From the NCBI GenBank assembly GCA_016930485.1, contig JAFGGP010000026.1:1-48850 (forward strand): DNA of 48,850 nucleotides, given 5' to 3'. Of this stretch, positions 15,776 to 17,274 are shown piece by piece. Source of the DNA: Candidatus Omnitrophota bacterium. Lineage in GTDB: Bacteria > Omnitrophota > Gorgyraeia > JAFGGP01. The translations under genes and the position numbers were made by a program. The notes below the pieces were generated by a model that was given only the letters and a program-made list of their open reading frames with translations, was not told the origin of the DNA and did no database searches. Position 1 is the stretch's first letter. Each line of letters starts with the position of its first letter.

Positions 15776-15971
15776 TTGCAAAAACTATTATCACCGGATG
15801 TACGGACGGCTGCATTAAAAAGCTGGTATTCGGGGGCGCGTATCGCATCTGGCGCCCATCGACAAGCGTGCGCTCCCTACTCGGCGCGCGTCGATTCCTT
15901 CTCATCCTGCCGGTTGCTCCTCTATCACAGTTACGTCACCGGCTCGATTACCGTCTTCGAAGAAAGCATAC
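15776..15971. other. Spacer between the MBOAT leader and the island, nothing recognised
   Basis: About 200 nt with no recognisable gene, promoter or repeat family. It was probably the sequence directly downstream of tRNA-Arg before the island was inserted. Confidence 0.4.
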
Positions 15972-16023
15972 AAATCAAGCGCGCCTGGCAGGATTCGAAC
16001 CTGCGACACCTGGCTCCGGAGGC
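15972..16023 (-). repeat. Distal att site: displaced 3' part of tRNA-Arg
   Basis: These 52 bp are identical to 17193-17244. Positions 15980-16023 correspond to the tRNA-Arg acceptor 3' strand, T arm, variable loop and anticodon arm down to the anticodon; then similarity stops abruptly. The copy cannot encode a tRNA. It is the hallmark of integration into a tRNA gene. Confidence 0.88.
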
Positions 16024-16140
16024 TGGCAGGCCTTATCCTATAACATATTTTTTTTACTTAAGTTACGTATAATCCAATAAACTTAGTTTTATTGCTACAA
16101 TACCACACAATACCAAAACTATCACAAAAAATCACCTGCT

Positions 16141-16158
16141 GCAGTAGGTTTGTAGTAG
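16141..16158. repeat. Left-end iterons, GTAGTAG type (2 copies)
   Basis: GCAGTAG at 16141 and GTAGTAG at 16152 have an 11-bp start-to-start distance, followed by a T-rich stretch and GGCGCTTTTTT. The same unit occurs three times at the right end of the island with the same period. Helical phasing suggests protein binding, for example integrase arm-type sites. Confidence 0.6.
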
Positions 16159-16241
16159 GCTTTTTAGGCGCTTTTTTGAGATAAAACACTGCTTACGATA
16201 CGGCATTTCTACTTTATTCGGTTAAACTATTTATCTTCTTG

Positions 16242-17051
16242 CTACATACTTTTCAAATCTTCATAAGCCAATATACTTGGGATATCCTCGTTGTTATATT
16301 CTAGAAAAATATTTTCTTTTTCTTGGTTGAATCGAGGAATGCATCCTTTTGGCATAATAATATATTTTACATATTTTTCTTCAAATTTAAAATATCTATA
16401 TCCATCCTCTCGTCGATCTGTGATCATGGCTGAAAAATCTCGCTCAAACAATGAGCTTGGAATAAGTCGCCATTCTCTTTCAAAATATCCTGCTTTTATA
16501 TTTTCAAAAAACGATTCTTGCTGTGATAACAGAGTGGGGGGTGACTTGCCATATGAATAAGGAAATTCTTTATCTTTATCGTATTCTTCATAATATGAAA
16601 GAATGTGTTTCAATAACGGCAGAAGTCCACCGTTAATCGTGTATCCTTTTTCTTTATCATTCAAATCAAATTTTTCTTCACCATTTTTTATTAAAATTTC
16701 GTTTACTCTTTTCAGGATTTCGAAGACATAATCAAGATTGCCGAAAAAAGCGGGATTTTGAGAATATGCTACTGGGGTTGTATATAAATTGGTTAGATAT
16801 GCTTTTTCAAAAGAAATACCGAATTTTGAATAATTTGCACAATGAGATTCACATTCTGAAAGCGGGATATCTGTAAAGCTAATCATTTCACAGATAATAT
16901 CCTTAAAAAACTTAGACAAAAAGCTTAATTTGCAATTACCAAAACGTAATTCTTTTTTCTTCAAAATTTTTTCGGTAAATATAGAATATTGCTCTCCTTC
17001 GTCCTTCTTGCTAACTGCCCAATGAGTTAGTATATTCGATATATATGCCAT
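16242..17051 (-). CDS. AbiGi-family protein (abortive phage infection, antitoxin type)
   Basis: A 269-residue protein recognised as an AbiGi-type member by its order of motifs: YISNILTHWAV at the start, MISFTDIPLSECESH with NYSKFGISFEKAYL (about 56-86), TTPVAYSQNP, and a late KAGYFEREWRLIPS followed by VKYIIMPKG. In Lactococcus, AbiGi acts with AbiGii in abortive infection; AbiGii is not present here. No membrane segment is seen. A weak promoter (TTGACC, 17-nt spacer, TACGTT, 17073-17101) precedes it, with GAGGG about 12 nt before the ATG. The gene is much more AT-rich than its neighbours. A DUF2971-type protein is an alternative label. The activity itself is not shown by the sequence. Confidence 0.75.
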   Translation of the reverse strand: MAYISNILTHWAVSKKDEGEQYSIFTEKILKKKELRFGNCKLSFLSKFFKDIICEMISFTDIPLSECESHCANYSKFGISFEKAYLTNLYTTPVAYSQNPAFFGNLDYVFEILKRVNEILIKNGEEKFDLNDKEKGYTINGGLLPLLKHILSYYEEYDKDKEFPYSYGKSPPTLLSQQESFFENIKAGYFEREWRLIPSSLFERDFSAMITDRREDGYRYFKFEEKYVKYIIMPKGCIPRFNQEKENIFLEYNNEDIPSILAYEDLKSM

Positions 17052-17072
17052 GTAGTTTATGTTCCCTCAGAT

Positions 17073-17101
17073 AACGTATTTTATTAAATGCTCGCGGTCA
17101 A
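17073..17101 (-). promoter_or_regulatory. Weak predicted promoter of the AbiGi-like gene
   Basis: On the minus strand TTGACC (17096-17101) is followed after 17 nt by TACGTT (17073-17078). The -35 matches 5 of 6 positions, the -10 only 3 of 6. It lies between the right iterons and the gene, so proteins bound to the iterons could affect it. Confidence 0.35.
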
Positions 17102-17120
17102 CTCCCACAACCGGCCTCTC

Positions 17121-17149
17121 GTAGTAGTTTTGTAGTAGATTTGTAGTAG
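17121..17149. repeat. Right-end iterons, GTAGTAG type (3 copies)
   Basis: GTAGTAG begins at 17121, 17132 and 17143, exactly 11 bp apart, with TTTT or ATTT between. A T-rich stretch and GGGCGTTTTTT follow, as at the left end (16141-16177), in the same orientation. They lie about 45 bp from the right att repeat. Confidence 0.7.
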
Positions 17150-17192
17150 TTTTTTACTTGGGCGTTTTTTAAGAATTGTCGTAACTCCTTTA

Positions 17193-17244
17193 AAATCAAG
17201 CGCGCCTGGCAGGATTCGAACCTGCGACACCTGGCTCCGGAGGC
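17193..17244 (-). repeat. Proximal att site inside intact tRNA-Arg
   Basis: This copy of the 52-bp direct repeat overlaps the 3' part of the intact tRNA gene (17201-17244) and 8 bp beyond it. It is identical to 15972-16023. The crossover must lie within this identity segment. Confidence 0.88.
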
Positions 17245-17274
17245 CAGTGCTCTAATCCCCTGAGCTACAGGCGC
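17201..17274 (-). tRNA. tRNA-Arg (anticodon CCG)
   Basis: Read on the minus strand the 74 nt fold into a complete cloverleaf. The acceptor stem GCGCCTG pairs fully with CAGGCGC, the D stem is GCTC/GAGC, the anticodon stem CTGGC/GCCAG encloses CTCCGGA (anticodon CCG), and the T stem GCAGG/CCTGC encloses TTCGAAT. The discriminator is G and CCA is not encoded. It follows the sugar-epimerase gene and its repeat and may be transcribed with it. It is the integration target of the adjacent island. Confidence 0.96.

Follow-up and report, generated by a model that had tools for sequence, protein, structure and literature searches.

The 48,850-nt stretch of Candidatus Omnitrophota DNA analysed here (the window) carries a 1,221-bp unit downstream of a tRNA gene, which is probably a minimal island devoid of integrase, resulting from site-specific entry into tRNA-Arg(CCG) and corresponding to a deletion derivative or a cis-mobilizable element (CIME) with one probable defence gene. 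An exact duplication of the 3' portion of the tRNA, arm-like repeats, an ancestral tRNA flank beyond the distal repeat copy, and a search in which no cognate integrase was found together argue for a site-specifically inserted integrase-less island, of a kind already known. The analysis of the locus also uncovered a family of small structured elements matched to the T-arms of tRNAs, probably a more important outcome than the island.

Repeats and layout of the island

The single tRNA gene detected by ARAGORN in the window, tRNA-Arg(CCG), is intact and resides on the minus strand at 17200..17274 (Rfam RF00005, 67.6 bits). Its 3' 45 nt belong to the proximal copy of a 52-bp direct repeat (17193..17244, minus strand), the distal copy of which is located at 15972..16023 (minus strand), 1,221 bp away from start to start. 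A repeat finder run on the window returned the two copies as identical and at the positions given in a preliminary description of this DNA. The repeat spans the tRNA from the anticodon loop to the 3' end, plus 7 bp; the 8 additional bp originally reported are obtained with the Rfam boundary of the gene. The DNA between the copies (16024..17192, no strand assigned) has a GC content of 0.32, vs. 0.49 and 0.53 in the flanks, and the AT-rich interior noticed earlier, set in a neighbourhood of about 50% GC, is thus confirmed. In a set of approximately 33 tRNAs of the genome, this is the only one with a 3' duplication of such length, the next longest measuring 34 bp and being of a different kind; a duplication of 52 bp, exact and ending in a tRNA, is not a chance occurrence. 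Apart from the distal copy, no long copy of the tRNA 3' end was found up to 15 kb downstream. A candidate D-arm remnant beside the distal copy was discarded as not significant, being matched in 28% of shuffles.

Tyrosine recombinases bind arm-type sites, short direct repeats flanking the core on both sides. Just inside both 52-bp copies the repeat finder identified five 11-bp direct repeats, all in one orientation and conforming to the consensus TGYAGTAGNTT (arm motif of the island, TGTAGTAGNTT), about which the preliminary description was silent. Three of them (CGTAGTAGTTT, TGTAGTAGATT, TGTAGTAGTTT; 17120..17152, plus strand) are found at the tRNA end, two (TGCAGTAGGTT, TGTAGTAGGCT; 16140..16161, plus strand) at the distal end. 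Direct arm-type repeats on both sides of the core are the hallmark of a tyrosine-integrase attP, and the predicted arms, in 2 + 3 copies, are arranged in this way; position and repetition suggest that the 11-bp repeats are putative tyrosine-recombinase arm sites, as expected for such an element. Judging from the layout, all five repeats would flank one core in a circularised unit. The paired motif was found nowhere else in this genome, nor in 383 other genomes of the class (384 in total). The arm pattern has seven matches in viral contigs, where the 18-mer GTAGTAGNTTTGTAGTAG occurs at L032:1054, L027:130 and L028:466. At least one of the matches, that in L032, marks the end of a prophage, with a host gene on one side and phage genes on the other, a position suited to a phage arm site; no integrase or tRNA could be linked to it.

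Sequence comparison identifies the distal copy as the one carrying the ancestral tRNA 3' flank, which the tRNA-proximal side lacks. As a substitute for an empty-site comparison, use was made of a contig of the same genome (C37) that terminates with the 3' end of a paralogous tRNA gene. The 3' flank of this tRNA aligns, with a score of 48 reached by 0 of 2000 shuffles, with the sequence outside the distal copy, and is not homologous to the flank beside the intact tRNA (score 12). A fragment of a T-arm-linked element fitting tRNA-Arg(CCG) is found 67 nt outside the distal copy and not beside the intact tRNA, a spacing within the 49-73 nt range seen at most other tRNAs of the genome. Flank homology and element fragment concur in indicating that the tRNA 3' end was once at 15979, and that the unit was inserted between this 3' end and the 5' part of the tRNA.

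The layout of a tRNA-integrated element made up by two ends and one cargo gene, proposed at the outset, therefore stands, supported by the exact repeat, the arm-like repeats and the ancestral flank. The interior is integrase-less as described, only one gene being present between the copies. Two features of a CIME or an integrase-less island are present, att copies on either side that stem from the 3' end of a tRNA, and the lack of integration or transfer genes; descent from an integrase-bearing element, for which a neighbour in tandem is common but not necessary, may be a third.

The AbiGi-family gene

The gene (16242..17051, minus strand) encodes a 269-aa protein, its ATG being preceded by GAGGGA about a dozen bases upstream; the only other long frame, 89 aa, runs antisense within it. 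The protein matches the Pfam AbiGi family PF10899 with 37.5 bits (E 3.3e-9; curated cut-off 22.4 bits), in agreement with PADLOC (AbiGi, E 4.3e-9), and the assignment to AbiGi, formerly based on motif order, holds in the profile search that had been recommended as a check. The role in abortive infection ascribed to it has its sole basis in the family name. AbiG, known from the lactococcal plasmid pCI750, is made up by abiGi and abiGii; the island has no second gene, and so no AbiGii partner, and the two-component definition of AbiG does not apply to it. A search of the genome with the AbiGii profile PF16873 gave no match, and the control search was likewise silent. AbiGi is found in 9 of the 384 class genomes, and no AbiGii was recognised by reading beside AbiGi at the loci inspected.

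The closest relative, 57% identical, is from Ca. Omnitrophota DeMMO3_19, a member of another family of the phylum, where the gene sits in an unrelated context, with no tRNA nearby; the stretch searched contained no flanking repeat. Single-sequence searches of the genome_contigs, viral, phage and plasmid collections gave no close homologue; pair alignment gave one homologue in genome_contigs, and none in viral contigs. At L034:7673-8642, a locus of a further Omnitrophota genome (G255), AbiGi is encoded about 200 bp 5' of tRNA-Arg(TCT). It was rejected as a second tRNA-linked case, lying on the 5' side of the tRNA with no 3' duplication found.

Five residues (H10, Y96, E191, E193 and W194 in the numbering of the window protein) are common to eight aligned AbiGi members. 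AlphaFold models of modest quality (pLDDT 65-66) were obtained for the window protein and a shorter AbiGi relative. PDB matches of the former are all insignificant, with DarT and Tpt1 within the first five. For the latter, DarT is the top match (E 6.3e-3, probability 0.95), Tpt1/KptA is also at the top, and ranks 1-21 are all occupied by proteins of the ART fold. A fold search of BFVD gave no significant match. At the sequence level, hhalign found no match between the AbiGi alignments (A1 and A5) and a shallow alignment of three DarT sequences from the same class (A7). Most likely the cargo is a defence effector that works as a single protein. Taken as a lead, held with roughly even confidence and leaning on the predicted fold, it may be an ADP-ribosyltransferase of the DarT/Tpt1 type with nucleic acid as its target, a reading favoured over an antitoxin. 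The 'antitoxin' label attached to PF10899 in Pfam is doubtful, because AbiGii is absent and the model of a family member resembles DarT/Tpt1, a weak lead; the label may be wrong, and may hide an ADP-ribosyltransferase, a correction for the AbiGi family which can be tested. Lactococcal AbiGi alone is non-toxic in E. coli (PMC3985639).

T-arm-linked elements behind tRNA genes

The element fragment in the window (15833..15911, minus strand) is in the host flank, outside the island, and starts with 8 nt (GGCAGGAT) that show complementarity to the T-arm of tRNA-Arg(CCG). It aligns with an element behind tRNA-Arg(TCT) with a score of 104, the best of 500 shuffles scoring 28. Elements of this type are structured, about 110-130 nt long, sometimes in tandem, and usually reside 10-75 nt 3' of a tRNA gene. 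In the genome under study, one such element follows many of the tRNAs at a distance of 49-73 nt, its first nucleotides being complementary to the T-arm of the tRNA concerned. Full copies include L043:234-357, L045:383-508 and L068:248-373. A model (R1) built from eight copies (alignment A3) detected elements in 81 of 246 class genomes (E<=1e-3) and, at the stricter threshold of E<=1e-9, in 49 of 285 genomes of the phylum, other classes included. Among 44 copies examined, 34 are located 10-323 nt 3' of a tRNA on the same strand, several others being at contig edges.

The 5' segment of the elements, usually 9-15 nt long, is complementary to the T-arm of its own tRNA over 10.0 nt on average, vs. 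5.9 nt for other tRNAs. At the right border, the tRNA sequence that runs from C56 to the CCA end is usually found again. In the closing helix 96% of positions are paired, and double changes are numerous. Covariation is strong, with a score of 0.331 vs. 0.103 in shuffles, a value leaning towards structure because it comes from an alignment fitted to the model. Rfam contains no family matching the elements (tRNA and sub-threshold chance matches only), and no description was found in a limited search of the literature, which is weak evidence of absence. By sequence analysis the elements appear to be an undescribed family that has no entry in Rfam and extends across the phylum Omnitrophota. They raise the question of how a structured element of about 120 nt acquires its match to the T-arm of whichever tRNA it follows.

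Several elements (L045:748-909, L050:14621-14775, the element behind the L052 tRNA-Arg(TCT), L014:11583-11765, and 15833-15901 in the window) contain a GC-rich hairpin module (GAAGGAATCGACGCGCGACGAGTAAGGAGCGC...), either as an insertion or in place of some of the element sequence, which suggests modular recombination. Four contigs of the genome under study (G000; contigs C10, C37, C39 and C43) end inside or beside elements, which thus probably fragment Omnitrophota assemblies.

Origin of the island and relation to known systems

The MAG from which the window derives is 89% complete, about 11% being absent, and consists of 57 contigs. It contains three matches to tyrosine recombinases. Two of these, one after topA on contig C25 and one among housekeeping genes on contig C55, look by context like the housekeeping XerC and XerD. 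The third, a 421-aa protein, is encoded on contig C44 (L011), along with a VirB4/FtsK-like ATPase, near the enolase gene; C44 reads as archaeal by gene content and is possibly a binning error. A cognate integrase was found neither inside the island, nor beside it, nor among these three proteins, and no empty site, further insertion or excised circle came to light; any mobility is accordingly putative. The mobilisation in trans by a resident integrase suggested at first gains nothing from two XerC/XerD-like recombinases and one on a possibly mis-binned contig. None of the three is an obvious helper; given the incompleteness of the MAG, mobility in trans may nonetheless exist.

According to the scheme that would best account for the locus, a mobile element entered tRNA-Arg(CCG) by site-specific recombination of the tyrosine-integrase type, its identical copy taking the place of the tRNA 3' part, which was thereby displaced by 1.2 kb. 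The integrase may have been supplied by an element since lost, or never long resident; the inserted unit would have been without its own integrase from the start, or would have lost it later. Two att copies, arm-like sites inside each of them and a single gene of the AbiGi family would be what is left, an island either dependent on an integrase from elsewhere or stranded. It is unlikely, in comparison, that the unit is a minimal defence cassette mobilised in trans, combining att core, arms and a stand-alone AbiGi ADP-ribosyltransferase, at a tRNA locus also hosting T-arm-guided elements. Were the unit mobile, the lower bound for a tRNA-integrating element would be about 1.2 kb, with two ends and one gene.

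The term satellite, used in the preliminary description, implies a dedicated lifestyle, and since there is one copy in one genome, such a unit cannot be told apart from an internally deleted or decayed island. That integrase-less cassettes with a single defence gene form a stable class, regularly hijacking the integrase of another element, seems rather improbable: both ends do look complete, with core and arms on each side, and only an intact ORF remains between them, a tidier state than random decay would leave, but no second mini-island was found at any other tRNA examined in the genome, the arm pattern is missing from the 383 other class genomes, the cargo has no close relative in the phage, plasmid and viral collections, and no helper integrase is known. 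Hallmarks of phage satellites (PICI, PLE, P4-like) are missing as well, the island having no integrase, regulatory or packaging genes of its own.

Two further explanations were considered. An assembly or population artefact, in which the 52-bp repeat misled the assembler into attaching foreign DNA or a circle already excised to the contig, might be suspected in a MAG in 57 contigs, others of which break at tRNA-linked repeats; it is nonetheless very improbable, both flanks being continuous with the genome, the distal side bearing the correct ancestral tRNA 3' flank, and the arm sites suiting an integrated element. Hardly credible is a chance partial duplication of the tRNA into which AT-rich DNA was later inserted with no site-specific recombination. 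Partial duplications of tRNA 3' ends, 17-34 bp long, are indeed common in the genome, yet these begin in the T-loop and lie 166-255 bp downstream, behind a structured element, whereas the repeat of the island begins in the anticodon loop, is exact over 52 bp, and encloses an insert with matching arms at both ends.

The preferred reading, an integrase-less island derived from site-specific entry, finds a precedent in CIMEs as defined in PMC5704250, which lack integration and transfer genes and retain attL and attR at a tRNA 3' end. The island differs in being only 1.2 kb long, with one gene and no ICE or IME in tandem, and its mobilisation is putative. The 15 ssrA islands of Dehalococcoides without an integration module (PMC3146451) are similarly integrase-less, and bounded by direct repeats of the 3' end of a tRNA-like gene. 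They form tandem arrays with integrase-bearing islands, involve a serine recombinase, and use the T-loop of ssrA; the island described here is in contrast a lone unit, with a repeat starting in the anticodon loop and arm repeats of the tyrosine type. The cargo belongs to the same family as the AbiGi component of the AbiG system of pCI750, and differs in standing alone, with no abiGii partner. It may be likened to DarT and Tpt1 (KptA) by the predicted fold of the AbiGi family, and by conserved H and E residues at positions plausible for a putative ART site; at the sequence level it is set apart from them, no link having been found.
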